A stretch of DNA of 64,000 nucleotides from Rhododendron vialii (Eukaryota > Streptophyta > Magnoliopsida > Ericales > Ericaceae), in assembly GCF_030253575.1 (NCBI RefSeq), contig NC_080557.1, positions 40,872,501 to 40,936,500 of the forward strand, given 5' to 3'. The notes beneath the pieces are model-generated. The model searched no databases. It was not told the origin of the DNA and was given only the letters and a program-made list of their open reading frames with translations. The position numbers were made by a program, and so were the translations under genes. Below are positions 4,123 to 59,800 of this stretch, piece by piece (positions within the stretch are counted from its first letter, which is position 1; the number at the start of each line of letters is the position of its first letter).

Positions 4123-5730
4123 CTTGGTATTTTGCAACTTCCTCTCCATTATAAAAGAGCTTGAATGTAGGATATGAATGGATATCAACTTTGGAGCACA
4201 GAGGTTTACTCGTTCCACAATCAACTTGTCCAACCTCTATCTCATCCTCGCGTTCCATTTCTTTCCCCAGGTCTTCCCACAATGACCCCAAATTCTTACT
4301 GGAAACTCAATTTTAATCAACAATAAGACCAAAAAATTCTTTAAAACAACTACAGAGAATGGGATGGACAAAGGTGGAATATTACCAGTGCTTACACCAA
4401 GGAACACAAAATCGCACAAACCACGCAGTATCTTTCTCCTTCACCTAAATGAAACAAAAACAAAAGCAAACAATGTTTAACATGGTTTTCTCTCTTACGA
4501 TAGCAATTTAATGAAAATGAACTTTTTAAGGAAAATAACTAAGAAAGAAAGAAGGCTGAGTAACAAGAAGTTGTGCTAAACCTTTACTTTAATTGACGCT
4601 ATCACATAAAATTGACTTTAAGTATCACATGCGATCAAGAAGTTTACATAGTATCAGAAATTTGTATCCAAACCATGAAGAACTTTATCATCAAACTACA
4701 TGGCTCCAGGAGAGGGTCATGGGCATGTGAGTTTGAAATACAACACACCTGTGCAAGAATCCAAATAGACTTTTGACATTGTAACACATTATGAAGCCAG
4801 AAGTCTGGCCCTATGGGATACAATCATGGAGTACAATTTATGTTTGCATAGCAGTGCTTATGTATGTAACAAGAATTGCGGTTACATATCACAACCACCT
4901 GCACACTACCAGCAGTTCTGCAACCACAATTTGTCAAGACCCTAGCAAATTAAGTATTGGAACGCACTCCGAAATATTAGACACTAACGTTCCACAATAG
5001 AGATCTAAAGCGATCTCGATATTTTTACAACTCATTTCCTTAACATTTGCCCCATAGGAGTAAAAAATCAAATATAACCAACCAACATATAGAGCATTCA
5101 TAAGATTCATAAGATAAATGTCAAAGAGAACTTGTCATATGTTTCTAGAAATATTTTGTACAGAAAAAATTCCAAACATACCATTCTACTTTTGGAATAC
5201 TTCAATATAGTAAATATTTTCTTAAACTTTCTTATATCGTAATCTATAAAAATCCACCCGGCTGTCACACCGTACCGCAACTTAGAAGATTAGCTTATCA
5301 AGTTCCCGTTCTTCGAACCGAAATAGGTGAAACGATACGCGTTACAGGTAACATACTTCGGAAAATAAATAAAAAAGCTTAACACAACATACCCAGATAC
5401 ATATTGATACCCAAGAACCAGAAAGAATGTTTTTAAAGATTGTCTGTGATCTATGACATACTTGCATAATTCATCTTCATTAACTAACACGAAAAGAGCC
5501 AACAAAAGTTAAACACAACAACGGGGTAGTCCACAGACACAAGTGCTAATGAGAACAGAAGAAACCCTAATTAAGATCAAGAAAGAGAAGTTTGGAAGGA
5601 AGTGATTCACCTTGTCATTGAAAGTTTCTTCTGTTAGGGTTATCACCTCAGCTTCGGCGACTAATAGATTGAAAACAACAAGAAGGAAGAATGATAGTAG
5701 AATCAGAGAACGGTGGAAGTAGAGCTTCAT
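4123..5730 (-). CDS. PDIL5-1: PDIL5-1-like protein disulfide isomerase (3' exon not found)
   Basis: Small single-thioredoxin-domain disulfide isomerase of the ER. Exons on the minus strand: 5730-5611, 4444-4386 and 4298-4123, phases 0, 2 and 1, all with GT-AG borders. Exon 1 starts at MKLYFHR, gives a hydrophobic signal peptide (about residues 8-26) and continues AEVITLTEETFNDK. Exon 2 gives VKEKDTAWFVRFCVPWCKH. The split codon with exon 3 restores the redox motif CKHC (CxxC). Exon 3 carries NLGSLWEDLGKEM, VDCGTSKPLCSKVDIHSYPTF (cis-Pro region) and LFYNGEEVAKYQ. The Arabidopsis homologue is about 146 residues, so some 28 are missing. Reading on past 4123 meets a stop near 4070. The last exon either lies further left in a form I cannot see, or is lost. 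A CT-rich 5' leader (5747-5774) precedes the start. Confidence 0.85.
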
Positions 5731-5743
5731 CGCAGCTCCAATG

Positions 5744-5746
<3 letters not shown>

Positions 5747-5774
<28 letters not shown>
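5747..5774. repeat. (TC)n microsatellite in the PDIL5-1 5' leader
   Basis: About 14 TC units, ending 16 bp from the PDIL5-1-like start codon on the upstream side. On the transcribed strand it reads as GA repeats, a common feature of plant 5' UTRs. Confidence 0.95.
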
Positions 5775-5942
5775 CAATTTGGGAAACTCGTCGGTTTTTG
5801 CTAGTAGCACACTAGCAGGCTCCCGGCGGCGGCTAGATCCGTCACTAACGGGCCATCACAAATTTAAACTGGACCAACAAGCCCACTCAAAGTCACGTAA
5901 ACATGGGCCTATATGGAACTCATTCGGACCATATGGGAAAAA

Positions 5943-8360: not shown

Positions 8361-10457
8361 TCAAAAGCCCTTAACCATCTCATCACCAAAGCTCCTAATC
8401 ACCTCAGGAATCCTCTCGTTCTTCACTTTCTCCGCTGAGGCAGATCCCGAGGGCAGAATGGTAGATTCACTCTGAGCGTTAACGATTCTCTCGAGCCTCT
8501 CCTCGCTCACCCCGAAGGCAGCTGCGAAAGCGGGACCCCTCATGCTTTGTAGGACAGAGTTAGAACCCACCAGGAACTGAGGCCGGTTCCTGCGGGCTGA
8601 GGTGGTGAACCCGAAGAACTCGAATGGGCCGGAGTGAGACGCGATTTGGCAGAATGGGAAGTACCGGGGGATCCAAAACACGTCGCCTTCGTTCACTTTA
8701 GCATTCATGGCTAAGGTTCCGTTGGGAAACACTATTTGGATTCTGCCACTTCCTCTCAAAACGATGCCGTACTCTGTGGCGGTTGGATTGAGATGTGGTG
8801 CCATCATTGATCCCTATATATTGTAAAAACAAGAAATAGTTAGCTAATTTTGATGATAAAAATGCAGTAATTAATTATCTTCCAATTAAAATAAAATACT
8901 CGCCTAAATATTAATATCAAAACACATAACAACCATTGTAACTTTTTCCTTAGTTTTACATAAGAGCGTGGAAGTGAGTAACATTACCGCAGTGAGATTG
9001 ACAAGATAAATGCCAACACCGGATCGCCGGAGGGGCGAATAAGCGGACTGATCAACGGCAACGCTCGACCCATAGTCGTTTTCAAAGTCGGGCTTCCTGT
9101 CGAAGAGGTTGTATGAGTCTGGCCTACTGCTTCTCTCTTCATCTTTTCCACTCACTTGGTTTCCAAAAACAGAGTTCAAAAGCTTCCACATAATGGGTTC
9201 TTCATCTTGCTCGGTTGCTTCTTCGTGGACTTGCGCCATTCTCTTCAAGCATTGCACTCTTTCATAATGCTTCATTTCCAAGAATTGGGTCCAAACTCTT
9301 GATTGGTGCGAGTTCGACAATGATATGATGGGGCCAGATTTTTGCCGGGTCAAGATCTGTCTCACTTGTGATTCTGAGACCTGCAAAAGCAATCGATTAG
9401 AGTTCTTTTTTCTTTCTTTCTTTCTTTTTTTTTTCTGGTCCCCGTATTGGAATTATAAGTTTTCATCTATAGATTGCATACGTTAAGTGCGGTCGAAAGA
9501 GTTGAGCTTTCGAAACCAGCAAGTACAGATGTTGGATTCGAGCCTCCACCAATGAAGAAAGACTGTAGAAACATAAAAAAAAGAGCAAACAATTTAGCAA
9601 ATTTTGTAGAAAACACACAACATGCTGTACTAGGTAATGTTATAAGCAACTGTTACTTTTCTTTTTTTCCAAACCAATTCAAGGGTTAATGTACCTGGAA
9701 GGTGCCCCATCCAATGCTGTCAGATTTTTCAATGCTACAAATAACATGAAGTTGTTGGCCATCGGCAGTGTTAACCAAATAGAATGTAGAACCGGCTGAA
9801 ATTCTATACAGATCTCCGCAATTCAATCTCTTCTCAATCAGCTCATCCCTGTAGATTGATCCAACCCTTGCTTCGCCTGCCAACAACCTCATATAATATA
9901 TCAATATCAAAAGCAACAAAAACATTCCAAAAACATTGTTCAATGATATTTTAGCCATATGGCTTCTTTATGCTGTAACATTCTTGTTAGTTCATTATCC
10001 TCATTTTAGCGTAGATCATACGATTTCGAAAAACAAAACTCTCTCCACTTTAGTCCCCATCACAGAGGTATGCGTACCCAAAATGATTTGCTCTCAACAG
10101 TCAAACATAACAGGTCGAGTATTAACTAGATAGGGATGAAAAGTTACCTCTGCGGATAAAGAGGATGAGGTCGGAGTCGAGGTACTGAGGGATGAAGAGG
10201 GAATTGGGCTCCATTGTTACGAACCCAACATGAATATTTGGCCAGTCCGAAATCCACCCGTGAGTGCTCCTCACCACTTTCATTTCCCCTGCTTCAGTCC
10301 TCACAACCCGCTTCATGTCCCGCAACAGGAACATCCTCTCCCTCCCTCTCCTCTCTCCTCCTTCACCGCCCTCGTGATGATTGTAACCCTTCACCATTGC
10401 CACTGCACAGCACAGGGCTAACACCAGCAGCAACAAAGCACTTGCGATTCTCCCCAT
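8361..10457 (-). CDS. Vicilin-like seed storage protein, copy A (two-cupin 7S globulin)
   Basis: Predicted 472-residue secreted bicupin of the vicilin-like At2g28490 type, a seed storage protein of the vacuole and secretory route. Minus-strand exons: 10457-10148, 9876-9695, 9562-9482, 9380-8988 and 8813-8361. All have GT-AG borders, and the total is 1419 nt in frame. The start codon opens a signal peptide (MGRIASALLLLVLALCCAVA). The N-terminal cupin spans exons 1-3 (IHVGFVTMEPNSLFIPQYLD, CGDLYRISAGSTFYLVNT, SFFIGGG). Exon 4 is the charged linker (DSYNLFDRKPDFENDYGSS). The C-terminal cupin follows (MMAPHLNPTATEYGIVLRGSG, GDVFWIPRYFPFCQIAS, FGFTTSARRNRPQFLVGSNS). A TATA box lies near 10565-10575. 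One extra T just before the stop appears to truncate the last four residues relative to copy B. Confidence 0.93.
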
Positions 10458-11647: not shown

Positions 11648-11784
11648 TTAGGGAAATATTAATTGACAGCAAATTTCACAGAGCAAAGTAAATTTATTTG
11701 TGTTCAAGACCACACAATGACAAAGCATTTGCAAAGTTCAAGTTACTGAAAATATATAACACGGTAATAAATACTAGTAATATA

Positions 11785-12031
11785 CTCCCTCCGTCCCAAT
11801 TTGCTTGTTCAATTGTCGAAATACGTGTCTTTCAAAAATATATTTATATGTTACATTTTATAATATTTTTTTTGTTGAAGATTTTGTATAATAAAACTAA
11901 TTGAGATCTATCAAACAAGATCCATATTGCATATTAAAAACATTACGAATTGAAAATTATAGCCAATTTTTTGAGAGGTCAAACGCTCTCAAAAAGTCAA
12001 AAATGGGTCAAACAAACCGGGACGAAGGGAG
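11785..12031. mobile_element. Stowaway-like MITE
   Basis: The left terminus CTCCCTCCGTCCC and the right terminus in reverse complement, CTCCCTTCGTCCC, match the well-known Stowaway terminal repeat. A TA dinucleotide flanks both sides (11783-11784, 12032-12033). The 247-bp interior is AT-rich and non-coding. Confidence 0.88.
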
Positions 12032-12051
12032 TACTAAACAGTAAAGATTGA

Positions 12052-13367: not shown

Positions 13368-15566
13368 CTAGTAAAGTCCCTCAAAGCCCATAACCATCTC
13401 ATCACCAAAGCTCTCCATCACCTCCGAAGCCATCTCGTTCTTCAATCTCAGTACCCCTGAAGCAGATGTCGGGGGCAAAATAATAGATTCACTCTGAGCA
13501 TTCACAATTTTCTTGAGTCTCTCTTCGCTCACCCCAAAGGCAGCTGCGAAAGCGGGCCCCCTCATGCTTTGTAGAACAGAGTTGGACCCCACCAAGAACT
13601 GGGGCCGGTTCCTGCGGGCTGAGGTGGTGAACCCGAAGAACTCGAATGGGCCGGAGTGAGACGCGATCTGGCAGAATGGAAAGTACCGGGGAATCCAGAA
13701 CACGTCGCCTTCGTTCACTTTAGCATTCATGGCTAAGGTTCCGTTGGGAAACACTATTTGGATTCTGCCGCTTCCTCTCAAAACGATGCCGTACTCTGTT
13801 GCTGTTGGGTTGAGATGTGGCGCCATCATTGATCCCTATCGTAAAAACAAGAAATAGTTAGCTAATTTTGATGATAAAAATGCTGTAATTATCATAAAAT
13901 TAAACTACAATACTGGCCTATATATTAATATATCAAAATTCATAACATCAATTGTAACTTTTTGCTTAGTTTTACATTAGAGCGTGGAAATGAGTAACAT
14001 TACCGCTGTGAGATTGACAAGATAAAGGCCAACACCGGATTGCCGGAGAGGCGAATAAGCGGACTGATCAACAACAACGCTCGACCCATAGTCGTTTTCA
14101 AAGTCGGGCGTCCTGTCGAAGAGGTTGTATGAGTCTGGCTTGCTGCTTCTCCCTTCATCTTTTCCACTCACTTGGTTTCCAAAAACAGAATTCAAAAGCT
14201 TCCACATAATGGGTTCTTCATCTTGCTCGGTTACTTCTTCGTGGACTTGCTCCATTCTCTTCAAACATTGCACTCTTTCATAATGCTTCATTTCCAAGAA
14301 TTGGGTCCAAACTCTTGATTGGTGTGAGTCCGAGTGGGAGTTTGACAATGATATGATGGGGCCAGATTTTTGCCTGGTCAAGATCTGCCTCACTTGTGAT
14401 TCTGAAACCTGCAAATGCAATTGATTAGAGTTCTTTTTTCTTTCTTTCTTTCTTTTTCTTTTTTTTTTCTGGTCCCCGTGTTGGAATTATAAGTTTTCAT
14501 CTATAGATTGCATACGTTAAGTGCGGTCGAAAGAGTTGAGCTTTCGAAACCAGCAAGTACAGATGTTGGATTCGAGCCTCCGCCAATAAAGAAAGACTGT
14601 AGAAACACAGAAAAAGAACAAACAATTCAGTAAATTTGTTGAAATAAATCAACGTCAGAAAACACACAAAATGCAGTACCTAGGACTCTGTTGGTTTTTG
14701 TTTTTTTTTTTTTGTCCAAAACAATTCGAGGGTTAATGTACCTGGAAGGTGCCCCATCCAATGTTGTCAGATTTTTCAATACTACAAATGACATGAAGTT
14801 GTTGGCCATCGGCAGTGTTCACCAAATAGAATGTAGAACCAGCTGAAATTCTATACACATCTCCGCAATTCAATCTCTTCTCAATGAGCTCATCCCTGTA
14901 GATTGATCCAACCTTTGCTTCGCCTGCAAAGAACCTCATATAATAGATCAAAAGTTACGAATCAAATCTCTCCCTCAAATCTCCAGACAAAACTGGAAAA
15001 AAAAAAAAAAAGCATTCCAAAAACATTGCTCATACAAAAATTATAGACAACGGAGTAATCCGTAAATGATATTTTAGCCAAATTCTTGTCAGTACATTAT
15101 CCTCATTTTATCGTAGATCATGCTATTTTGAAAAAACAAAGCTCTCTCCACTTGAGTCCCCATCAAAGAGGTATGTGTACCCAAAATGATTTGCTCTCAA
15201 CATTCAAACGTAACAGGTCGAGTTTTAACTAGATAGGGATGAAATATTGTTACCTCTGCGGATAAAGAGGATGAGGTCGGAGTCGAGGTACTGAGGGACG
15301 AAGAGGGAATCGGGCTCCATGGTGACAAACCCAACATGAATATTGGGCATGTCCGAAATCCACCCGTGAGAGCCCCTCACCACCTTCATTTCCCCTGCAT
15401 CAGTCCTCACAACCCGCTTCATGTCCCGCAACAGGAACATCCTCTCCCTCTCTCTCCTCTCTCCTCCTTCACCGCCCTCGTGATGATCGTAACCCTTCAC
15501 CATTGACACTGCACAGCACATGAGGGCTACTACTAGTAGCAACAAAGCACTTGCGATTCTCCCCAT
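13368..15566 (-). CDS. Vicilin-like seed storage protein, copy B (two-cupin 7S globulin)
   Basis: Predicted 482-residue bicupin, the intact tandem neighbour of copy A. Minus-strand exons: 15566-15254, 14923-14742, 14596-14516, 14408-14004 and 13835-13368. The total is 1449 nt in frame, with GT-AG borders at the same positions and phases as copy A. It has a signal peptide (MGRIASALLLLVVALMCCAV), a His/Glu/Arg-rich segment (HHEGGEGGERRERER), an N-terminal cupin in exons 1-3, an acidic linker, and a C-terminal cupin in exon 5 ending GDEMVMGFEGLY. The first part of exon 5 (MMAPHLN to SEERL) is identical in protein to copy A. The tail (KKIVNAQSESIILPP) is closer to copy C, which suggests gene conversion. 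The linker is four residues longer than in A. TATA and ACGT-core elements are at matching distances upstream. Confidence 0.93.
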
Positions 15567-18562: not shown

Positions 18563-21368
18563 CTAGTAAATTCCCTCGAAGCCCATAACCATGTCATCAT
18601 CGAAGCTCCCGGTCATGTCTGAAACCCTCTTGTTCTTCGCTTTCTCCACCGAAGCAGATCCCGGGGGCAGAATGATGGATTCACTCTGAGCATTCACGAT
18701 TTTCTTGAGCCTCTCTTCGCTCACCCCGAAGGCGGCTGTGAAAGCGGCCCCCTCATGCTTTGTAGACAGAGTTGGAGCCCACCAAGAACTGAGGCTGGTT
18801 CCTCCGGGCCGAGATGGTGAATTCGAAGAACTCAAACGGGCCGGACCCAGAGGCGATCTGGCAAAATGGGAAGTAGCGCGGGATCCAGAACACATCGCCT
18901 TCGCTCACTTGCGCGTTCGTGGCTAAGGTTCCGTTGGGACACTATCTGGATTGTGCCACTTCCTTTCAAAACAATGCCGTACTCTGTTGCTATTGGGTTG
19001 AGATGTGGTGCCATCATCGATCCCTACATCCAAGAGGCAGTCAGCTGATGTCATGATCCAAATGCAGTAACAATTAACAACAACAAAGGTACAACCTTGC
19101 TATATAATTGAGTAATTGGTGTTCTATAATAATTCCATGAAGCTCAAACTGTTTCGATCGTATGATTTGAGCTTCGTGAAATTGTTATAGAACATTAAGA
19201 TTGAATAAGTTATATAATTTAAAAAGTGAGTGAATATTACCGCATTAAAATTGACTAAATAGAGGCCAACACCGGAGTGCCTGAGAGGCGAATAATCGGA
19301 CTGTTCAAGAGCAACGCTAGAGCCATAGTCGTTTTCGAAATCGGGCTTCTTGTTGAAGAGGTTGTAGGAGTGAGGCTTCTTGCTGCTGCTTCTTCCTACA
19401 TCATTTCCACTCAATTCCTTTCCGAAAACTGAGTTCAAAAGCTTCCTGAACGACCTCATAATCGGCTCCTCCTCTTTTTCGGTTTCTTCTTCTTCTTCGA
19501 AATGCATTGCCATTCTCTTCAAACATTGCACTCTTTCGTGATGCCTCATTTCCAAGAACTGGGTCCAAACTCTTGATTGGTGTGAGTCCAAGTTGGAGTT
19601 TGTGTTTGACAAGGAGGTGATCGGCCCGGAACTTTGTCCGGTCAGGATCCGGCTCACTTGCGATTCCGAGACCTGCAATTAATTAGAACTATTTGAGTAA
19701 GGTTTCTTTGTTTTCCACTTATAAATGTAAAGATTGTTGGGAAAATACCCGATCTCACCCGCACAACGGAAGCGTAACGAAAAACAAAACACACAAAAGA
19801 GACACAAGATTACGTGATTCCCCAAACTCGGGTACGTCCCCGGAGAGAGAACTTCCACTAATATTGAATGAGTACAATGAGATACAAAATACCCTACTCT
19901 AGCTCTCAAGCTCTCGATATTTTTATCTCCCTCAAACTCACAATTTTCTCACTCACAATTTTCTCTCTGCGGTAACTCACACATGCACAAAGAAAGTATT
20001 GACTTTTCTCTGTTGTTCTCTGCCTTTTCAACACACACCTCACAAACGGCACAGTAGCCTCTATAAATAGGCATGACTTAAGGCTAGTATAAAAGCCTCT
20101 TGAACTGCCCAGAAGAAGAATCTGGAGCCCAACACAACAAATGCTCCATGGGACTTGTTGGAATGCACCACCTAGAGCCAATTAACTCCACCGAACCATC
20201 TGCACATTCTATGCAAACTAATGCCATTAAATACACAACTACCAGCATTTTCTTTCTTTTCTTTTTCCAACAGCTTTTCCCACATAGCAAAAAACGCAAC
20301 AAAGATGGGATGATGTACATTGTTAGTTTTAAGTATTTTCATTTTGCTTACGTTTAATCCGGTAGAAAGGGTTGAGCGTTCGAAACCAGCAAGTACAGAT
20401 GTTGGATATGAGCCTCCGCCGATGAAGAAAGACTGCAAAATCATTAAGACGAAGCAAACATCTCAGTAAATTTTGCAAAAAACAATCAAAAGCCAAAACA
20501 CAAACAACTGTAGCAGCCTAGAGCAAGCCCATAATACGAGTCATTTGGTTTTCAAATTCATAATTTGACAGTTCTATTTTTGGTAAAATCCAAGTTTATT
20601 TTGTACTTTCTTTTGCTGCCAATAAATGGTTGGGTTTGTTTTGAGTCATACGCAATTGGTACGTTTCATAGAATTTTTGTGATCGAGCTTTCAATGTTTA
20701 ATTTACCTAGAATGTGCCCCATCCGATGCTATCAAATTTCTCAATGCTGCAAATGACATCAAGCTGTTGGCCATCGGCAGTGTTGACCAAATAAAATGTA
20801 GAACCAGCTGAAATTCTATACACATCTCCGCTCGTCAATCTCCTCTCTATCAGCTCATCCTTTTAGATTGACCCAATCCTTACTTCCCCTACAACCCAAC
20901 CTCATAATATATAAGTCAATGGTCCAATGAAAATTTCTATCTTTTCTAGTATTCAAAATTTCAAGTTTTATAAACATGTGGCTGAGAGAGAAATTAAGAG
21001 GCAAGTGGAGTGGTAGACACTACGTACTTCCACGCATTCGGCTGGTATTCAACAATACTGATTTTCGCCGAAAGAGAGAGAGCATTACCTCGACGAATGA
21101 AGAGGATCAAGTCGGAGTCGAGGTACTGAGGGATGAATAGGGAATTGGGCTCCATGGTAACGAACCCGACATGAATATTCGGCCACTCCGAAATACACCC
21201 TTTAGAGCCCCTCACCACCTTCATTTCCCCTGCATCAGTCTTCACCACCCGCTTCACGTCCCGCAACACGAACCTCTCTTCCCTCCTCTCTCCTTCGCCG
21301 CTCACCACTGCCACCGCATAGCACACGGTCACCGCGAGCAGCAACAAAGCACTAGTAATTCTCCCCAT
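18563..21368 (-). pseudogene. Vicilin-like seed storage pseudogene, copy C
   Basis: Third tandem bicupin copy with the same five-exon structure. Exons: 21368-21089, 20888-20707, 20432-20352, 19672-19241 and 19023-18563, with all splice borders preserved. Exon 2 has an in-frame TAA at 20865-20863, replacing the Tyr of SIYRDEL, and a TAG at 20709-20707, replacing the last Gln before the splice site. Exon 5 has a 2-nt deletion near 18940 and two 1-nt deletions near 18765 and 18747 relative to A and B, so the C-terminal cupin is read in several frames. The last intact segment ends MGFEGIY. Intron 3 is 679 bp against 101 and 107 bp in A and B, because of an insertion of about 0.5 kb. The full-length product is not encoded; at most a truncated N-terminal piece of about 100 residues is possible. 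Confidence 0.92.
19735..20272. mobile_element. LTR-like insertion in intron 3 of copy C
   Basis: Extra sequence of about 540 bp absent from intron 3 of copies A and B. It begins TGTTGGGAAAAT and ends TTTTTCCAACA, so the ends form a short TGTTGG/CCAACA inverted pair as in LTRs. It contains a TATA-like CTCTATAAATAGG on the plus strand. A clear 5-bp target duplication was not seen. A solo LTR is the simplest reading; exact ends are uncertain. Confidence 0.5.
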
Positions 21369-21599: not shown

Positions 21600-24500
21600 C
21601 CGATCGACTCCAAAGACAAAGTCAGTAGTGCCTTCCTATTCATTAATTTGTGTAGTTTTGTATGACTTCTTCTTTTGCCTCCCCACAAAAACGGAGGCAC
21701 CTCATCATTCGAACGTGGTCGTTTGTGAAACAATAAGTTTAGGAACACTTCTGCCAACCACAAATATTGTTGTGAAACGATAAATATACATAGAATTGTT
21801 ATGAAATGGTACAGCATCGCCCCACGAAACAAAGCAAAAGCAAAAAAAAAAGTGGGAATTTTTGGGAGGCCCTATTTTCGCAATCAAAGTCTACCCATGT
21901 ATGTTTACCTTTAAAACACAACCCCAGACATATATACCATTTGATGCACATGAATCATCCGCAATTGTGTTTCAAAAGTTGTGTGTGTGCAGCATTGTTT
22001 TTTGGCAACTACTAGCATTGAGTTTTGCTAAGCAGATGCCAAAAATTTGAAAATTTAACGTGTTTTTTTAATTGATATTAATGCATTTGCACGAATATCT
22101 ATACACTCTCCCCCCGAGATCATGAACTTTTGCACATAATCAACTAACCGTTGGGTTGGGGTTAGCATTTTCCTTTAGGCTTTTTATTTTAAATCGGGAG
22201 CTTATTTCCAAATTGAAAATACTCTCTCTGCCCCAATTGTATATTTGTCCAATTTAGGAAACCCAGCTTATTAAGGGATATATAATCAAGACTTTCATAC
22301 AGCGTTTTTCTTAAACTTTTGAAAATGGACAAATAATTTGGGCATTGAAAAGTCAAAAAGTAGACAAACAAAATAGGACGGAATGAGTACAATAGTACTA
22401 AGCAGTTGGTTAGGTTATCTGGATTGATTCTACATATATATAGTATTGGTTATGTTTTGATTCTCGATTTTCTAAAACCATTGCAAATGGTCCAGTTACT
22501 GGATTTTTAAGAAATCGCACCAATACAGACCGTGTGCACCCCTAATTTCGTCTCCTCTCTTTTTTTTGCTTGTTAAGCGGAGAAAATCCAAATAAAGGAG
22601 AAAAAAACCATTGGAGCAACTTCAGCCGATGGACAATCTTAAATGAAATTTCTGATAATAAACAAAGGGATAGATTGATTTTTACATTCCCTTTTTCGAT
22701 ATCCATACTCTCTTTTTTGTCTTTTAACAAAAGAATACATACACTTTCAATACTAAAATCCAAAAAAAGAGAGTGTAAAAATCAATTCTCCGAACAAAAT
22801 GGTTGACAAAAGTCTCTAATCATCACTGTCAATCCAAAACAACCCTTTCAGGTGTATCTACTAGCAACATTATGATCACAAATGATGGTTTTTTTCTTTT
22901 ATCCGCATCACAAGTGATGTTTAGAGAGACTTAAAAGAGACACAAGTTTTTTTTATTTTTTAACTCAGGTGTTCGAGTCAACTTTTGCGCACGTCGACTA
23001 ATTCTGGGAGCTCAATCCCACCACTCACTTGCGGAAAGCACAATTAAAATTGAAGCAAAACTCCATATGGGCTGACCCCAAAGGAGATGATAACATATGA
23101 AAGATTTCGAATCCAAAACCTTAAAAGGAATTAAATTCTTAAGTTCCAAGTCTCGATCACTTGGCAAACCTCTTGGATTAAAAGGGACAGAAGTTGACAA
23201 GGCTGATTTTATCACTTTGTCAGAATAGCATTGCTTCAATACAACTACTTAACTTCGCTAAAATAGCCTGAGATGAGGAAGGGGGTGCCTTGCCTCATGC
23301 CCGAAACAGACTACATGAGCAGAATAGCACTCAAATTCTTACCTTGGGCCACTACACACACTATTATTCAATTGCTTGCTTAAAAGAGTTAAAATTCTTT
23401 CTACATGTGTGGTTTTCAAGGTTTCCACCACCGTCCGTTCTGAGCCTCAACGTGCGTTCTCCTGCCTTTGAGAAAAGGCATATCTGTTCTCATTTCATTT
23501 TTGGAGGATTCGTTTCCTGTTCCTGAGGCTGAGAAGCCTCAAGCTCCGCCCCCCCCTTACCTCTCTGTCTATTAAAAAGCCGAACCAATTGCTATCTTAT
23601 AGGGACCGCAAAGTAGTATATACACACAAAAATGAGTTTTATCATACATCAATAGATACATTAAAAATCAATTTTTGTGTATGAAATGGTCATAGACACT
23701 TTTAACTTTCAAAATCAATGACCGTCCATTTTGTAAACCAAAATTCAAGTTTTGATATAACTATCAATATCCAACCAAGCTAGTTTTTTACATAAATATA
23801 CTACTTTCCAGATCCTAAAAGATGAATGGTTCAGTTTATAACAAAAAAGTCTTGCGGAGCTCATAGGCGGTGGTGAAAACTCCACATCATAACAAAAAAA
23901 AGGTCTTATTGAGCCCATAGGCGACGGTGGTCTCCACCTCTAACGGATAGAATTTATTCTGCTTTAAAATGCTCTTTAAAGTGGCATTCTTTTCATCTTC
24001 CTTTTCTTCGGCAATCCTACGTTTGGTTTTTTTTTTTTTTCTTTTCTCTTTTCTTTGTTTCTTCTTTCCTTCCAAGTTCCAACTCTGCTTCTAACAAAAG
24101 AGGCAGGTCACTAGGCCCACACCCACATGTTCTTTTGCTTATCAAGGAAGAAACCTTAAAGTGTAGTATCTTTATAAAAGAAATCTAGAAGAAAAGAAAG
24201 GGGAAAACTTGCATCTAATCGCTCATCTGACTCAGCACTGCGTTTTCACTAAAAATCACTAAATTTTGCCATGTTCATAACTTGACATTTGTGAACAACA
24301 AAAAATTATTCATGACTTATTGATTAACGGAAACGCCCTTAAGACACGCTGAAAGAAAGTAAAAGCATTCAGAGCATACTTTGGTATTGATACGACCATT
24401 TTAATTGCTTGTCTTTAGTTGAACCTTGATCCCATGAGGTCAACTTCTTAGATGAACTAACCACTTATTTAATTTGTAGCACTTGTCGAGCAAATCGACT

Positions 24501-25240: not shown

Positions 25241-25479
25241 GGGCCCGTTCCAGAACTAAAAAAGGGTCCTTATTTTTTAAAAAGATAATTTCAAGCTCAG
25301 AAATTATGAATTTATTGAAATCTAAAATTATGCAATATGGATCTTGTTTGAAAGACCTTAATAAGATCTTTTATACGATGCAAAAAAAAATTGAAAAATT
25401 ATTTTTCATTTACATTATTTTTGAGTTTAAAAATGTGAAAAACTGCTTATTTTTTAAGAAGGTTTTTGGAACGGGGCCT
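25241..25479. mobile_element. Inverted-repeat MITE upstream of EXO5
   Basis: The left end GGGCCCGTTCCAGAA and the right end TTTTGGAACGGGGCC (reverse complement GGCCCCGTTCCAAAA) form terminal inverted repeats around an AT-rich 240-bp body. It lies about 390 bp upstream of the EXO5 start codon. The superfamily is unresolved; the termini resemble hAT or Harbinger MITEs. Confidence 0.6.
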
Positions 25480-34835: not shown

Positions 34836-35289
34836 TCCTTCGGATTAGTCATTCTATTGAGTCGAGTTTAAAATAAAACAACTGTTTGTTACTGCTTTGC
34901 ATTGTTCTCGTGGCCACACTGTGCTCTCTACTTTCTTTCTTTCTTTTTGGTTACAATGCTCTCTACTTTCTATTGCAGTGAGTTCCTCAGGCTCAGGGCC
35001 CATGGGAGAATACTTGAGGAAAATTAACATTGATAAATGATTCCTAGAGGCTGTCTTGTATTTTTTGCAAGGAAAGGAGTAGAATAAAGAACACAATTAT
35101 AGTAGATTTTGGTTTTGAAGCAACAGAAATATGTATTCAAACCATAAACAAACTAGTACAAAAGACACACCGGTGCCGAAAATATAAGAAACAAAAATAC
35201 GATAAAAAACATCAAAAAAAAAACAATTTCGGTGTTTGAACCCACCGATCCGCTCGTAGGAATGGGTGGATAGAGGTGTCAAACGGATC

Positions 35290-35815
35290 GGGTCGGCACA
35301 GGCACGGCACGGGCACGACACGTTTGAAGGGGGCACAGCACGGCACAGGCATGGATTAATCCTGGTATGGCACGGAACGGCACGGTCGTAGTGGGCACGC
35401 GGCATGACACAGGGCACGGAAGTGAGCGGGAACGACACAGGCACGGCACGGAAGTTGGCCTGGCACGGCACGTCACGACACGATCTTAGACGGGCACAGC
35501 ACGGGCACGACACGAAAGTGGGATGGGGCACGAGTCGCAACACGGCACGACACAGTTCTACCCAGGCACGGGGACGCGGCACAACACGGGCACGAAGTGA
35601 GGGGGAACGACACGGGCACGGCACGGAAGTTAGTCTGGCACGACACGGTCTTAGACGAGCACGGCACGGGCACGACACTAAAGTGGGATGGGGCACAAGT
35701 CGCAACACGGCACGATACGGTTCTAGTCAAGCACGGCACGGTAAGGCACGGGCACGAGCACGGAAGTAGGACAGGCATGGCACGACACAACACAATTTTA
35801 GTCGGGCATAGCACG
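35290..35815. repeat. Left subterminal GCACGGCACG array
   Basis: Degenerate tandem arrangement of 5-6-bp units (GGCAC, GACAC, GGGCAC) with longer higher-order copies, for example AAAGTGGGATGGGGCAC twice. Frames of 100-200 codons here are translation artefacts of the repeat (Cys/Arg/Pro- or Thr/Arg/His-rich). Confidence 0.9.
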
Positions 35816-35817
35816 GC

Positions 35818-36159
35818 CAGTGGCGGTCCTGGCGGATCCAGAAATTTCAGACAGATGGGTCACTTTTCAAGCATAAACTTAATAAAAATACCCACAATCT
35901 AATATAAAAAGATTATGCGTTCAAAAAAATATGACGAGAATAAAAAATGAATGTACTAGTTTTTTACATTTTCACTTTTCAGTAGATCGTTTATTAAATA
36001 TTTATTCTTTATTTTGGTCCATTTGATCCAACAGCCCATTATACTTTATTTTGGGTAGTTTTATACAAAATACTTCCTATTTTGATTCACAAAAAAAAAA
36101 CCTCGATAATTTCAGGTGGGTCACGTGACCCATCTGTGCCTACATTGGATTTGCCCCTG
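35818..36159. mobile_element. hAT MITE nested in the left subterminal array
   Basis: Begins CAGTGGCGGTCC and ends TTTGCCCCTG (reverse complement CAGGGGCAAA). Flanks match at 7 of 8 positions: AGCACGGC (35810-35817) and GGCACGGC (36160-36167). The GCACGG array resumes on the other side, so the insertion postdates the array. Confidence 0.72.
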
Positions 36160-36475
36160 GGCACGGCACAGGCACGACATGTCGACACAACACGGTGTCG
36201 GTTCTCATCAGGCACGGCACGACACGAGACATGGAAAAACAAAGATTTTAAAAAAAGACAGAGAAAATAAATAAGAAAAAAAACTAATTTAAAAAAAATG
36301 GTTTTAAAAAAATAATCTCTATGGACTATGGAGTTCGAACCCAAGTCCTTTGAGACTTGACACACATCTCAAATCACCAAGGCCAACAATCTTTTTGTGT
36401 TTATAATTAGAAGAAGTAATATATATTATATAATTCTATTCTATAAAAATGGGCCTCTTGTATGATAGCCACACG

Positions 36476-37268
36476 ATTGTGACACAATTATGATGATCCA
36501 TATCGTTCATTTGGTTATTCTTGGTGTTTTAATCACTCTTGCAAATTTTCAGGTCTACCGGATTTTGGAAGCCCTTTCATCGGGACGTAGATTTATTAAT
36601 AGAAATTTTTTTGTTATGTGCGATCAAGTATATAATGATAACCAATTTACTTCATTTTTTGTGCTAATGACATAATTACTCCCACATAAAAGGTAGACGA
36701 TTCTGATTTTCAAATAACACATCGGGCGGCCCTCAAGTGGTGCATTATAGGACTTTAACGCTTTTGAAAGCACCAACCGTGTTCTGATCATGTGGTTTTC
36801 GACATCCGATTATCACCTATTTAGGGGAGAATAATAATTTGATAAGATCTTAAATCGTAACGGTTTAGATCGAACATTCGAAAAAATGAGTCTGCAGCTA
36901 CCTTTCAAATGTATACATCGAACTTATCTGGTTATAGACCAATGTATTCTACTATAGTCTAATGTTCGCTAATCACATGATTGCAACACAAGTATGACGA
37001 TCCATACCGTGCATTTTGTTTTTCTCGGTGTTTTAATCACTCTCGCAAATTTTTGGGTTTATCGGGTTTCGAAAGCCCTTTCATCGCAACTTAGATTCAT
37101 TAATAGAAAATTTGACGTTATGTACGATCAAGTATATAACGATAACCAATTTACTTCATTTTTGGCGCGAATAATATAATCACTCCCACATAAAAAAATA
37201 GACAGTTTCGATTTTCAAATAACACCTCGGGCGACCCTCGAGTGATGCATTACAGGATTCTACGAGAA
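36476..37268. repeat. Direct repeat of about 290 bp, copies 504 bp apart
   Basis: Copy 1 is about 36476-36764 and copy 2 about 36980-37268. Shared blocks include GGTGTTTTAATCACTCT, GAAAGCCCTTTCATCG and GATCAAGTATATAA. Both copies keep similar 61-codon frames, but with no recognisable domain, so I do not call genes. Confidence 0.8.
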
Positions 37269-37465
37269 CTTTCGATAAGCTGGTGCATATGGATTATGGT
37301 GTCCCGTATGCACATGATCACAAAGATCATATAAAAAGGAATGAGATGCTGCCCTAGCAGACATCTCATTCACGTCATTCTCTTGTGGCAGTGTGGTGTG
37401 TGTGTGTGTGTGGCAGTGTGGTGTTTTGTGGCTTATTCATTTCAGTAAATGGGCTAAAGTGGATA

Positions 37466-37885
37466 TTGTGGCAACTTATGAAGGCCTTAAATGGCAACAT
37501 GATGTTGCCCTCGCTTCAGTTTTTGGCTATGATATATTTTCTTAACTAATATGCTGAGCTTAAGTTTTACTGCATGCCTTGTGGTCTGTTTAGCTTCACT
37601 TAACTGAAGTGTGTGTCTCCTTTTAGTCTGAAATGAATAAGCCACAGACACAATCCCAGTTTTTGGCTAAGTGAAGTGTGATTGTGTTGCAACTTATGAA
37701 GGCCTTAACGGCAACTTAACGTTGCCGCATCCATTTCAATTTCCGGCTATGATGATAAAAAAAACCCTAATGTCTGAGCCGTAGTGGTATTGGTAATGTT
37801 ATGAACTATGAAGTGGTGGTGCGACTTATGAAGGCCTTAATGGCAACTTAATGTTGCATCCATTTCAATTTTCTGCTATGATGAT
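37466..37885. repeat. Triplicated 65-bp motif inside the hAT-like element
   Basis: Three related copies begin near 37470, 37686 and 37822 with ACTTATGAAGGCCTTAA, followed by TGGCAAC..TGTTGC and TTTCAGTTTTTGGCTATGAT-like sequence. The function is unknown; the copies probably arose by local duplication within the element. Confidence 0.75.
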
Positions 37886-38070
37886 ATTATCTTAGCAGAA
37901 TTCAATTTTCTTGTTCATTTGGCTTTCATATACCTGTTTTCTGCTGCTGTTGGTGCATGCCTGGCTTGCTGGTTATTGTTTTCTTGTATTGTAGGACATT
38001 GTAGAGGGCCTAGAGACCAAGGACCAAACCACGTGAAGGCTGAAGCAATTGGCATTCGTGAAATTCGAAC

Positions 38071-38395
38071 TTGATCAAGAAGGATGAATTTCCTGATGTG
38101 CACCTCAACATTATCAGCAAACTTGATCAAGTGAATCAGGTTTGTGGTGAATTTGTTTTTCTTTAGAGGTTTGTCATTAATTAGCTTTACGTGTTGGGTT
38201 TTGAGTTTTGGTATATAGATAGATCATTATTGTTGCTGTATAACTATAATGGGAGCCTTATTATCGTTTGGCGGTTCAGGTTGTGGAGATGACAATCTGT
38301 CCTAGTTTAGTTGAGCTCGTTGAGGATCCAGATGTTGACATTCATTTCTTCGCCAACCAAGCACTCCAGTCAATCATGTCATGATGTCAAGCTAA
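38071..38395 (+). pseudogene. Captured fragments of PP2A 65-kDa regulatory subunit A
   Basis: Two exon-like pieces separated by an intron with GT (38140) and AG borders. The first (38071-38139) translates as KKDEFPDVHLNIISKLDQVN and ends with Gln at a GT donor. The second (38280-38395) gives PSLVELVEDPDVDIHFFANQ, then ALQSI. After a small frameshift, the family C-terminus VMMSS and its stop follow at 38378-38395. Both match HEAT-repeat segments of the plant PP2A scaffold subunit (RCN1/PP2AA family). In the parent protein these segments are not adjacent; the intervening HEAT repeats are missing. This is a partial, intron-containing, transduplicated copy inside the hAT-like element. Confidence 0.82.
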
Positions 38396-40654
38396 GCAGG
38401 CGAATTTGAGTTGTTATCCATCCGGTGGCTTTTGTTTGAATTAAGAGGACCTCATGCCAGAAGTGTTTGTGTATCCTTTCCTTTGTTACAATATACACAG
38501 TTTGAACTAGTAGTTTATGTGTTAGTCGCTCGTATTTAGCTTGGTGGATTCCTCTAACCTGGTTTTATGCCAAACTTGAGGTATAACGAAGCCATGCTAA
38601 ATATTAAGTTTGTTTTTAGTTAGTATAGTTAATTTTATTTGATTGCATTGCTTAGCTGAGGTGGTGGCATAACCCATCGCATATTCTGTTTGCTGAGTTG
38701 AGGTGGCGGCCTAGCCCCTCCAATCTGTTAGTTTATTTCACATGTGCTGATTGCAAATGTGCATAATCTAGAATTTTAAAAATCTCCATACACTGAATTT
38801 GTAGTACAGAACTACAGATTGTGTAATAGTTCTTTTGATTGCTTTAGACTCTTTATGTGTTTATAGTTCCACACTCTACCATGTTTACTCACGTGTTTAG
38901 TTGAGGTGGAGCGAATGAAGCTGTATATTTCTGTCTGATGTGTTTAGTTTCAACACAAGGAACCAATTATTACTGGAAAAGTGACACTGTTTTGTGTTCA
39001 AAGTGATTAGAATATATTGGTATTGCTTTCCAAGATAGACCAATCAATGTGTATAGTGCAAAGTTTCTCTAATGGTATTTACGATGGAAGTGATGGTCAC
39101 AGACAAACATGGTTCCATTATTCTCTACAAGTGATGGTCAAATCCAATTTGATCCTATTGGATTAGCAGCTGTGAACCGGAATAACATGGAGAGCTAGCC
39201 TTACTCCACGATTATACTGTTTCATAAAGTAATGTCACCAATGACCAAGCTCACTTTATGCATTTTCAGCTTTTGCCACATATTAACATGTGAACTTACT
39301 TAATTGCTTTGGTTGGATTGTATTGTTGAAGAAAGACAATGTTTAGGAACTGAAAAGAAAATGAACAGATGAAGAGCTGTTACGCTAGTTTAGTGCATAC
39401 GAAGTAGATGCCTCTAATTTTACTCTCTCAAAAGATGGCTTGTGCTTTGCTGATTAAAAGATAAGGATGGGTTCTATTTAATTTGCTTCCCTTCTCACCC
39501 TTGATCTCCTGGAATAACAAATTGAATTAAAGTGACAATGTACTATAACCGTTAAGCACTAGGATGTTCTGGGAAGTTATGCTTGTCGATAATGTGTAAG
39601 GTGAACATTGGGTGGAAATATCCAATGAAGAATGGTGAATGTTCATAGGTGTAGGCCTTGTATTGGTATATTTGATGCACTTATTTGGTAATTATGGAGA
39701 TGTAATATTATAAATCTTTGCATGACAGGTTTTGGCAAGTAATGTGTGACTAACAAAGGCAATGATGAGTCAATTCATTTGTTAATTGAGGTAGGTACCT
39801 TGGCGGGCCAACATTAGTTGCAGCCAATGAGTGCCCTTATGATTAACTTCCAATGTCTGAGCCCAAATGCTTATTTTTTGCAACTTTAAGCCATGAGTAC
39901 CACGTGTGTGTGTGTGGCTGTGTTCCAACTTTGGACAGCCAATGAGTGGCCATTGGACAGTATTTGTGTGTGTGTGCAGCTGGCAATTTTTTGCACTTAT
40001 TACCTTGATGTTTTTGCTTCTTGTTTCTGGGTTGTGTAGATGTTGTTTTATGCACTTAGCCCAAAGTGGCTTCAAGTGTGCAATGCAGTTTAGGTGGCTG
40101 GTTTATTGCAGTTATTTGGGCTGGTTTTGTATGGGCTATGATGATAGTTTTCTGAGCCAAATGGCATAAGTGGTTTTTGTAGATTATTATGCAATATTGA
40201 CTGCTCCTCTGTCCAGTTGTTGCCTGCTTTGTGTCCAAGCTGTTTCTGTTCTGTTCTCTCTGTGTGTGCAAGCTGCAGAAAACATGCTAATTAAGGCTGT
40301 TTCTGAGGCTGTTTGGGGCTGTTCTGGGGTTGTTGATGTGTGTGTGTGTGTGTCCAAACTGCAGTTTTAATGAAGATTGGAGGCTATTTTAGTGCAGTTT
40401 TTTTGTGTTACTATTGTGTCCAACCTCTATCCATCCTCTGCTATGTCCAAGATGTGTTGAAACTGTATTTCTGCTGTGTCCATTGGATAATCATTACTCA
40501 TTAGGATTGAAATATTGAATACTACAATATACAAACTTAAGAACATTAGAGGCACCGACGCACCGCACACCGGAATGTGTGTTTTTTGGGAAGATTTATT
40601 TTTAGACGAAAATCGGTTGCCAGTTGGTGATGTGTATACGAAAATTGATGGCAC

Positions 40655-41070
40655 ATCATGGCATGGCACGACACACGATTAAGGGCCGGCACGGCACGAC
40701 ACTCGATTAAGGGCCGGCACAGCACGACAAGAACCGACAAAAAAAGGTATGGCACGACACGACCCGACAAAAAAAAGCACGGCATGACACAACCCGACAA
40801 AAAAAGGCACGGCACGACCCGACCTGACAAAAAAAGGCACGGCCCGACGCGGCACGATTAATTCATCGGGCATGGCACGACACGACACGATTTTATAAAG
40901 GCACGGCCCGACAAAGCAAAATGGCCCACCACGGCACAGGCACGGCACGGTACGGTACGGCACGGCACGGCATGCCATGGCACGATGAAGTAAATGGGCA
41001 CAGTACGGCACGACACGAAGCACAGTTGGCACGGAAGAAAATGGCACGGCACGGCACGGCATGACAGGCA
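40655..41070. repeat. Right subterminal GGCACGGCACGAC array
   Basis: Tandem units such as GGCACGACACGACCCGACAA with poly-A spacers, then denser GGCACG units toward the terminus. Relative to the termini it is the inverted counterpart of the left array. Confidence 0.9.
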
Positions 41071-41093
41071 CGTTTGACACCTCTATGGGTGGA

Positions 41094-56800: not shown

Positions 56801-59800
56801 AAAGAAGTGCCAACGCTCTCAAGAAGTGCTTTTATTTGCTGCAGTAGAGAGCCAGAAGTGCCAACACTCTCAAAAAAATGGTTTAAGAATGAAACTAGTC
56901 TTAATTTTGGAACATCATACTGAAAGGACCTGGTTACCTGATTTTCATTTGACCTATTTGCAGCACATATCTCCCGCAAGCTCGGTCCAAGATCCAGGTT
57001 GGCTAATATACGATGCAATAATAGGCAAATTACAAACAACATAAAAATTATTAAAAATCCATTGCCAACACAATTATCAAACTTAAAAGAAGAATGACAA
57101 CTCAACCAAACATTGCAAATGTTTAGTAAGGACAACTACATGGAAGTAATTGTGATGAGAACACTGAATGGGAAAGGTGAGTGCCACAGGTGGTGGCAAT
57201 GAAAATCAGATCAGAGAATATTTAATGAGATAGTCCCACCATGTGTGTAAACCAACTAATAGACATACCAGGTGGAAGGTACCAAAAGGACAAGAGGAAG
57301 GCCAAATAAAGAGTCAAAGACATGGTGTATAATACTCGGACTCAAGCTCAGGGTGTCTTAGAACAGAACCAATTGGTGAACAATGGAACAAATCCAGACA
57401 GCCAGTCCCAAGTGATTGAAATGAAGACTACTCAAGTCAAGCAGACAATTAATGCAGGATGTGAATACAGGACAAGAGGAAGGACAAATAAAGAGTCAAA
57501 GACATGGTGTATAATACTCGGACTCAAGCTCGGGGTGTCTTAGAACAGAACCAATTCGTGAACAATGGAACAAATAGTCCCAAGTGATTGGAATGAAGAC
57601 TACTCAAGTCAAGCAGACAATTAATGCAGGATGTGAATACAGGACAAAAACAATGTTGTCTTTGTACAGATCTGCTTTGGTGACATTCACACCAAAAAGT
57701 TCTTTGTTTTGAATGTATGTTCATTTGAAACCTTTCCACAAGTCATGTTCCCTTTTACAGTAATCATAGTAACTCATAGCTAGAATGCAGATTCCAGGGA
57801 CTCCCATGTGAGTCAATTCTTCGGTAACCCAACAACAAACAAAGCCATATATCAGGCCCTCAGCTAATGTTAGAAAGGTTCTTTTTTCCATATAATCGAC
57901 CAGGAATGCTAAAAATTGTTTAATAATCAAGAAAAATGTTCCACCCCCTTTTAGTTTTCCTTTTTTCCCCTTCTGTTATCCTTTATTTTTTTACACTTGC
58001 AACCAAAACACATATGTATTTGCTCAATATAGTATTTTACATCTACACCTCACCTTTATTCAACCAATTCCAAAGCTCAAACTCTGGGAAAGCAGAAATA
58101 GCTGACATTCAAAATCTTTAAAACCTCGTCTTCAGGTTCAGTAAATTAGCCACTTCACTAAACCTTTGATTGGCGAATCTAGATGTCTCAACTTAAGTTA
58201 CATTCTAACCCTTCAATGAGACAATTAAGTTTAAATTTAAAGAGATAAGCTGAGTCAGCTGACAAATGAAAGGAAAGAGTGACAAGACTGAAGCTGACAA
58301 ATGAAATGACTAGAACAGAGAATACTCGTAACGAAACATTCAAAGAGCAAAGAGCATAAGATGCATAACAGTACCTCCCTCAAAAGGTTGCAGTGGAAAA
58401 TCTCTTAAAACCTGCTCCATATGTTTTGAGCTCTCATGGCTCACTATACGGGCCACAAGACCCTCCAAGATTTCACCCTGCACCTTTATATGGTCTTTTG
58501 ATCCTGCATATCAAGCTAGCCAATTTATTATTCAGCAGAGCTTGAAAACATTAGCTAAAGGGACAACAATATTGGCTTAGCATATTACAAGAACCCTGGA
58601 CAACGGGAACATTATAGCCTTACAAGGTAACTCATCAAAAAATCTGTCAAAAAACTCATGTTGCAGGGTGTGCTCAATTATAAATTCACATTTTCTATAA
58701 TTTTGCAAACAAACCTTTCAAAGCTAACTACAAAAATAAGGCCCACGAGTCCACGACTATAGTTTGTTTTTGCCAAACCTGTTTCCTATTTTTGACATTT
58801 CCAGTTGTTAGATCACCCAATTGTCCCAAAAGCTTAAGCTATCCAGAACTTGTGCCCAACAATGTCTATCAAGCTACTCAACACAACCTCAAACAGACTC
58901 GGAGGGGTAACCAAAATGAACTTAATTTGAAGCACAAACAAATACAGAACAGATTGTGCACTAACAAACAATACGGGGAACAAACACGGACAGCGAGACT
59001 TGAACCCAGGGTCCAGAGAGCTCTTATTCCATGTTAGATAGTAGTAAATTTGCTCAACAATGTACATCAAGCTATTCAACACCAATTACACTTCAACATT
59101 TAATTTAAGAAATAAAAAGCATCTATTAGAAGCAATACATAGAGCTAGAATGTTTAGTAAATAAAATCAGCTAGAGATGCTAATGCCTACGAGTCCAAAG
59201 GCCAAACAACGAATTACCCTAAACACAAGGAGGTGTTGATGTCAAAGTATGTTAGAAAAGGAAGCTGGAAATTGTGGTCTACAAAGCAAGATGTAAGAGA
59301 GAGAAGAGTGATCAGGAGCAGAACAGCAAAACCACTTATTCGTTGGAGGTGAGAAACAGTAAGAGTTCGCATGAAGAAAAAGAGACACAGACAGGGGCAC
59401 ATGCTCACCACCATTTAACATAGATAAATACATCTTACACTTTTGTATAGCTAAATATTAATCTACCATATGTGCACATCGAAGAACATAAATATCCCTA
59501 ACTTTTATGGAAAAAAATCACAATTAATGTCATTGTAGAGTCTTTTCTCCCAAAGAATAACTAGACCGAAAAACACTTTGTTGCAAGAAACACAACCTTG
59601 GAGAAAAAGGCTGTAGTGCACTGCACTGTTGACATGGTACAGGCTGTAGATAGTATACCCCTTTCATAACACAACCCCGAGATGAGAAAAGCCCTTGACT
59701 AAAGTCCATAGGAATACATAAGCATCACCAGAACTAAATATGTAATTATTCATCAACTGTACCTGGTACGGATATATCAGCAACTTCATCAAGAGCCTTA

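Follow-up and report, generated by a model that had tools for sequence, protein, structure and literature searches.

A hAT-like element in Rhododendron vialii carrying rearranged pieces of a PP2A scaffold gene

We analyzed a 64,000-nucleotide stretch of the Rhododendron vialii genome (contig NC_080557.1, positions 40,872,501 to 40,936,500, forward strand; hereafter the window), which contains at 35271–41085 a hAT-like element of 5,815 bp carrying pieces of a gene for the scaffold (A) subunit of PP2A. We consider it highly probable (about 0.9) that this element is non-autonomous, having arisen by deletion within a large hAT family whose members took up the PP2A pieces by template-switching repair.

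We propose the following course of events. Members of the family would have copied pieces of the PP2A gene into the region downstream of their transposase. The likely route is that breaks inside the element were repaired by DNA synthesis, during which templates switched into the PP2A gene and back repeatedly; this would account for the non-collinear blocks, for the short microhomologies, and for filler copied from nearby. The resulting patchwork would have spread with the element and been altered or cut down in ways that vary from copy to copy. The lineage of the window copy, which presumably also gave rise to a copy on contig 4, may then have taken up 1.4 kb from a locus on contig 2; thereafter both the transposase and the larger part of the PP2A patchwork would have been lost from the window copy, which would have been moved to where it now lies by cut-and-paste, with a transposase acting in trans.

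Ends, target site, and relatives of the element

The element is bounded by a perfect 15-bp terminal inverted repeat (TIR), TAGAGGTGTCAAACG, at 35271–35285 on the plus strand and 41071–41085 on the minus strand. The perfect match stops at 15 bp inside the element and does not extend beyond it. Immediately outside lies an exact 8-bp target-site duplication (TSD), TGGGTGGA, at 35263–35270 and 41086–41093. A preliminary description, made from the sequence alone, had reported these termini and this duplication, together with subterminal GCACGG arrays, and all are borne out. Numbering the element such that element position n is window position 35270 + n, hexamers of the GGCACG/GCACGG type occur 46 times in element positions 1–560 and 34 times in 5371–5815, against 8 times elsewhere in the window (58,185 bp); within the element there are none in 561–890, six in 891–2100, and none in 2101–5200.

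The insertion itself is directly demonstrated by a paralogous empty site. When the left and right flanks were searched separately in the genome (contigs are written C1, C2, and so on), the left flank including its TSD matched C6:9481721–9482116 at 97%, and the right flank after the second TSD matched C6:9482117–9482426 at 94%. The two matches abut base to base, with a single TGGGTGGA between them. The insertion is therefore younger than that duplication. The boundaries are indeed preserved, as had been described. A more distant paralog of the flanks is found at C8:36086742–36087491 (C8:36.087 Mb; 79–84%). Since the flanks are copied on both contig 6 (94–97%) and contig 8 (79–84%), this part of the window belongs to a duplicated segment.

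The whole-element search of the genome gave 105 matches among the 40 scored of 1,388 candidates, and the search with the right end (last 566 bp) gave 43 matches among the 40 scored of 342. Both ends were read in seven copies including that of the window, and six of the seven have an exact 8-bp TSD. Besides the window copy, these are at C2:43.91 Mb (CCCGTGAC), C10:19.63 Mb (GTCAACAA), C11:15.85 Mb (GGAATTAC), C7:31.96 Mb (CTTGTGAG), and C10:37.42 Mb (CGTAATGC; C10:37424806–37436949, 12,144 bp). The seventh, at C4:24.28–24.31 Mb, is flanked by the repeat CTTAATC. The existence of siblings with the same ends, each between a flank repeat of its own, excludes a chance origin of these ends. The preliminary description had looked to siblings and an autonomous partner as a check, and both siblings and transposase-bearing members with the same ends as the window copy were found.

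The 12,144-bp copy on contig 10 contains an open transposase frame of 690 amino acids together with a PP2A block of 94.8% identity. In Pfam the frame matches Dimer_Tnp_hAT (6.9e-30) and hAT-like_RNase-H (7.7e-12), with a BED match below the Pfam cut-off (0.0046), and its best solved relative is the Hermes transposase (2.6e-18). The contig-4 copy has pieces that likewise match hAT-like_RNase-H (8.3e-13) and Dimer_Tnp_hAT (4.1e-24), with BED again below the cut-off (0.0036), between the counterparts of element positions 2106 and 2128. The sibling proteins thus have both the RNase-H-like core and the C-terminal dimerization domain of a hAT transposase. The copies on contigs 4, 9, and 10 have the layout element positions 1–2106, transposase, positions 2114 onwards; on contig 9 the order is left module, broken transposase, 2114–2638, and 3244–3467. 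More widely, at least 12 of the 40 right ends scored have a Dimer_Tnp_hAT match no more than 20 kb upstream of them and on their strand, and at least 10 of these matches lie in open frames of 698–707 amino acids; these counts are lower bounds, from 150 of 741 Dimer_Tnp_hAT candidates scored and 65 distinct of the 150 used. The strict left-end motif is present in three of four transposase-region stretches (on contigs 9, 6, 13, and 10, the last at 16.68 Mb), and the right-end motif in none of the four.

In the window, a tblastn search with the 690-residue protein gave no match at E ≤ 1 anywhere, in agreement with the earlier statement that transposase is lacking, and the window copy is therefore non-autonomous. 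The point at which siblings carry the transposase corresponds to 37376–37384 (plus strand), where the 12.1-kb contig-10 copy has a transposase region of about 4 kb. Because its relatives carry a transposase and the window copy has none, the latter is an internal-deletion derivative.

The 8-bp TSD and short TIRs are those of the hAT superfamily, and with the domains of the sibling proteins they uphold the earlier description of the carrier as hAT-like. The best-known capturers of gene fragments are Pack-MULEs and Helitrons, which might suggest a member of another superfamily (MULE, Helitron, or CACTA) with accidentally hAT-like ends. Helitrons have neither TIR nor target duplication, and the element has both; Pack-MULEs have a target duplication of about 9 bp and a Mutator-like transposase in the family, whereas here the duplication is 8 bp and the transposase of the siblings is of hAT type. 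Given 8-bp TSDs in six of seven copies with both ends, the 15-bp TIR, and above all the TSD and hAT transposase domains combined in the 12,144-bp copy, which refute it, we attach practically no weight to this explanation.

The preserved boundaries had been taken to suggest recent movement. This holds for the family: over the left 1.95 kb, any two of the three copies L013, L015, and L018, which sit in different flanks, are distinguished by 4 of 1,951 sites, so that the family moved recently. It is not clearly so for the window copy, whose closest sibling found is at a Kimura two-parameter (K2P) distance of 0.048, and a very recent insertion of this copy is unsupported.

Origin and arrangement of the PP2A pieces

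The two exon pieces of the window, when joined, match the PP2A-A chain 9j5i_D (phmmer, 3.7e-23), and the PP2A blocks have 91.6–97.0% DNA identity to a gene elsewhere in the genome. The donor gene is at C4:43.93 Mb on the minus strand. The 5 kb read there (L049) holds the last seven exons, all open; parent positions below are those in the reverse complement of C4:43926601–43931600. An ancient local PP2A gene, which that description had allowed for, is ruled out, since the neighboring exon (VIGIDLL...QDK) occurs once in the genome, in the donor gene on contig 4.

The captured exon itself occurs at nine genomic places including the donor gene (38 of 38 candidates scored). An element context was confirmed for six of the eight non-donor places, namely the window and the copies on contigs 4, 6 (L046), 13 (L048), 10, and 12. 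The capture of gene fragments is real, as had been claimed, but it is not private to the window copy, there being five other confirmed carriers.

In the window, three PP2A blocks lie on the plus strand. The first, at 38079–38196 (95.8%; parent 1539–1656), is the 3′ part of the exon DATIEQLL..LDQVNQ together with the initial 57 bp of the exon's intron, the exon remnant being at 38068–38139. The second, at 38226–38258 (97%; parent 3734–3766), is a 33-bp piece of an intron that lies 2.1 kb farther on in the parent. The third, at 38268–38490 (91.6%; parent 4455–4681), comprises the end of the last intron, the last exon (38280–38384, encoding VVEMTICPSLVELVEDPDVDIHFFANQALQSIMS followed by the stop), and sequence beyond the stop. 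Four parent exons are missing between the two exon pieces, and the apparent intron is composed of parts of three non-adjacent parent stretches. What the preliminary description had read as two exon pieces and their intron is thus a patchwork.

Other copies hold the same gene in different orders. The contig-4 copy retains more of the gene, though not in the parental order: parent 795–875, 2862–2938, 3075–3149, 1362–1741, 3614–3683, 3734–3766, and 4455–4681. On contig 6 the order is parent 795–863, a repeated stretch of the element's own module, 795–875, 2862–3149, and 1362–1666. The copies on contigs 10, 12, and 13 have parent 1391/1394–1717, and that on contig 13 also has 4603–4773. A place on contig 3 (L044) has parent 3750–3777, 3825–4017, and 4436–4797; it may form one element with a family left half (L005) about 20 kb away.

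How this came about may be judged from the six joins between parent blocks in the contig-4 copy. Three have microhomology: TTGGT (5 bp) where 875 joins 2862, TGTG (4 bp) where 1741 joins 3614, and TTG (3 bp) where 2938 joins 3075. For random joins in this gene, the probabilities of at least 5, 4, and 3 bp are 0.009, 0.025, and 0.070. The other three have filler, and that between 3766 and 4455, CCTTATTATCGTT, is similar to CCTTATTATTGTT (parent 3730), which precedes the break by about 36 bp. In the window, the 12 bases at 38120 recur within that exon at 38068 (AACTTGATCAAG), where the contig-4 copy reads differently. As far as the sequences can indicate, this pattern of joins fits synthesis with repeated template switching.

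Two other histories of the patchwork were weighed. In one, several family copies captured the same gene independently, as the two sets of boundaries and the different parent blocks in different copies might suggest. The join of 875 to 2862 is however common to the contig-4 and contig-6 copies, the right-hand join is common to those on contigs 10, 12, and 13, and at 4 of 276 aligned columns all five compared copies are alike and differ from the parent. We consider independent captures unlikely. In the other, scrambling came first: a duplicate of the PP2A gene was rearranged elsewhere in the genome as a pseudogene, which the element then took up in one simple step. Such an intermediate would give the same four shared columns; the context was read at all exon places but C6:6357342 and C9:12592801, and the PP2A blocks on contig 3 (L044) have no other element match within the stretch read, although a piece of family module lies about 1.6 kb upstream, at C3:18458940. 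On the other side, joins and orders differ between copies: the boundaries 1391/1394–1717 on contigs 10, 12, and 13 contrast with 1362–1741 on contig 4 and 1362–1666 on contig 6. We find this history less probable still. Distances are 0.057–0.074 (K2P) between copies and parent, and 0.028–0.090 between copies; these ranges leave out the window row, which in that alignment extends beyond its block and gives 0.22–0.35.

Several observations weigh against template-switching capture within a hAT family as we have described it. The flank repeat of the contig-4 sibling is 7 bp rather than 8 bp. The four complete copies at C2:43.91, C10:19.63, C11:15.85, and C7:31.96 Mb all lack both transposase and PP2A in a search in which the contig-12 copy served as positive control, so that the capture is restricted to a part of the family. 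Of the six confirmed PP2A carriers, one, that on contig 10, combines two ends read with an open transposase frame; the contig-12 carrier has a frame of 687 amino acids, and the both-ends status covers the contig-10 carrier only. Microhomology accounts for half of the six contig-4 joins, the other half having filler, and at a probability of 0.070 the 3-bp join is not notable. Finally, the direction of a second capture, from contig 2 (below), rests on the surroundings of the donor.

No function is indicated by the sequence of the PP2A pieces. A functional exon, spliced into transposase or host transcripts or giving rise to small RNAs against PP2A-A, might be suggested by the open frame and AG/GT splice sites kept in five of five compared copies, and by its orientation, since on contigs 10 and 12 it runs the same way as the transposase frame; a maize Pack-hAT is reported to extend a host exon (PMC8903248). 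Against this, differences from the parent at the three codon positions are 11/5/7 (summed over five copies, with shared changes counted repeatedly), and this lack of a third-position excess gives no sign of selection for protein; the exon of the window copy has moreover lost its acceptor side. We therefore regard a functional exon as very improbable. A bolder extension of template-switching capture is that a hAT lineage with transposase keeps a scrambled host segment as a passenger through many transpositions, re-scrambling it by repeated template switching, such that the copies form a readable repair record, and that splicing may still bring the preserved exon into chimeric RNAs; this is conceivable but rather unlikely.

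Layout of the window copy and further donors

The interior is not one continuous host fragment, a possibility ruled out by the alternation of family modules with pieces from at least two donors, perhaps three. All modules described here are on the plus strand. The left subterminal GGCACG-rich region (35271–35817) is common to family copies at about 69–92%. Nested in this array is a 342-bp insert at 35818–36159 (CAGTGGCGG...GCCCCTG), which we take to be MITE-like; it is flanked by an 8-bp repeat with one mismatch (AGCACGGC and GGCACGGC), and the alignment to the contig-4 sibling spans it. The left module, upstream of the transposase position (36238–37376), holds a 284-bp direct repeat (36470–36752 and 36974–37257, 84% alike). 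The module downstream of that position (37384–38048; about 73–95% to siblings) leads to the PP2A blocks, which are followed at 38507–38737 by a module found in copies both with and without PP2A (83–94%).

Next comes a contig-1-like stretch in two pieces (38733–39090; 97% and 79%). Element positions 3463–3611 match C1:23710110–23710258 at 97%, with the weaker second piece nearby, and have weaker matches on contigs 12 and 4; this stretch is perhaps a further capture.

Window positions 39095–40482 (element 3825–5212) match C2:38818983–38820407 at 92.6%. At 40482 (element 5212) the sequence switches at base level from the contig-2 locus to the family right module (...CTGTGTCCA followed directly by TTGGATAATC), which carries GGCACG arrays and runs from 40482 to 41085, its last 566 bp being matched at the 40 places scored of 342 candidates. 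No other element match occurs within 1.5 kb of the contig-2 locus, and it is on this that its assignment as the probable donor rests. The K2P distances are 0.046 between the window and contig-4 copies, 0.044 between the window copy and the contig-2 donor, and 0.065 between the contig-4 copy and the donor. This near-star tree suggests that the capture probably took place shortly before the window and contig-4 copies separated. Beyond the donor locus lies a repeat that we presume to be CACTA-like (L004, 2981–3558: CACTACGCCAAAAATTGCC ... GGCGTAGTG).

The contig-4 sibling is interrupted by retroelement-like sequence with gag/pol-like frames, as judged by eye, in the stretches C4:24280701–24288700 (L035) and 24296701–24306600 (L036), which are separated by 8 kb outside the sequence covered. 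Part of this sequence is present as two oppositely oriented copies, 96.7% alike over 3 kb.

Elsewhere in the window, 11781–12038, 22348–22392, 25329–25376, and 58817–58872 are repeats that recur in introns of the PP2A-A donor, the best match being 92.7% over 261 bp. A minus-strand frame at 13371–13829 has a cupin domain (Pfam Cupin_1, 1.4e-23) and is presumably seed-storage-like. The minus-strand frames at 8907–9392 and 19127–19678 look alike by eye; Pfam gave no match for one and a sub-threshold match only for the other.

Comparison with known capture systems

How DNA transposons acquire host DNA is still argued, and a 2026 review allows that an undiscovered capture route may exist for unlinked genes (PMC13317346); the donor here is on a different contig from most of the carriers. 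Several relatives with different permutations, and with microhomology or filler at some of the joins, make the family a tractable natural series for testing template-switch capture, and the series includes a copy whose transposase frame is still open. Our literature search found no paper joining hAT gene-fragment capture with PP2A or Rhododendron, and, judged by title, no transposon paper on Rhododendron hAT or Pack elements.

Capture of genes by hAT elements is already in print as Hatvine-6 and Pack-hAT, and the window case is of the same kind; the preliminary description of a hAT carrier as less common was thus overstated. In the grapevine family Hatvine-6, the rest of the interior varies and contains matches to host sequence, both genic (exon and intron) and non-genic (PMC2528002). 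The present family is similar in combining a common transposase and TIRs with a variable interior containing host sequence. It is unlike Hatvine-6, as described in that source, in that one donor gene is scrambled several ways across copies, and in that a transposase-less derivative is resolved against transposase-bearing carriers with an empty site.

The Pack-hAT elements of maize and rice are Pack-TYPE transposons (PMC8903248). Like them, as they are described there, the window copy is a TIR-bounded, non-autonomous hAT with an 8-nt TSD and no transposase, containing host coding sequence whose parent is found elsewhere. Unlike them, the captured gene is here also inside a transposase-bearing copy, and capture is therefore not confined to non-autonomous elements. 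For animal Pack-TIRs, gap filling or template switching at short microhomologies is described as the way in which sequence is captured (PMC8277862); the present case differs from that account in being a plant hAT, in being multi-copy, and in having several switches within one donor gene. As in Ac/Ds of maize (in part after PMC3260210), a non-autonomous element is derived by internal deletion from a transposase-bearing hAT; unlike in Ac/Ds, the derivative in the window also carries pieces of a host gene. To these systems the present family adds a case that can be followed from the donor gene, through a carrier with transposase, to a deletion derivative, the donor being scrambled in ways that vary between copies.

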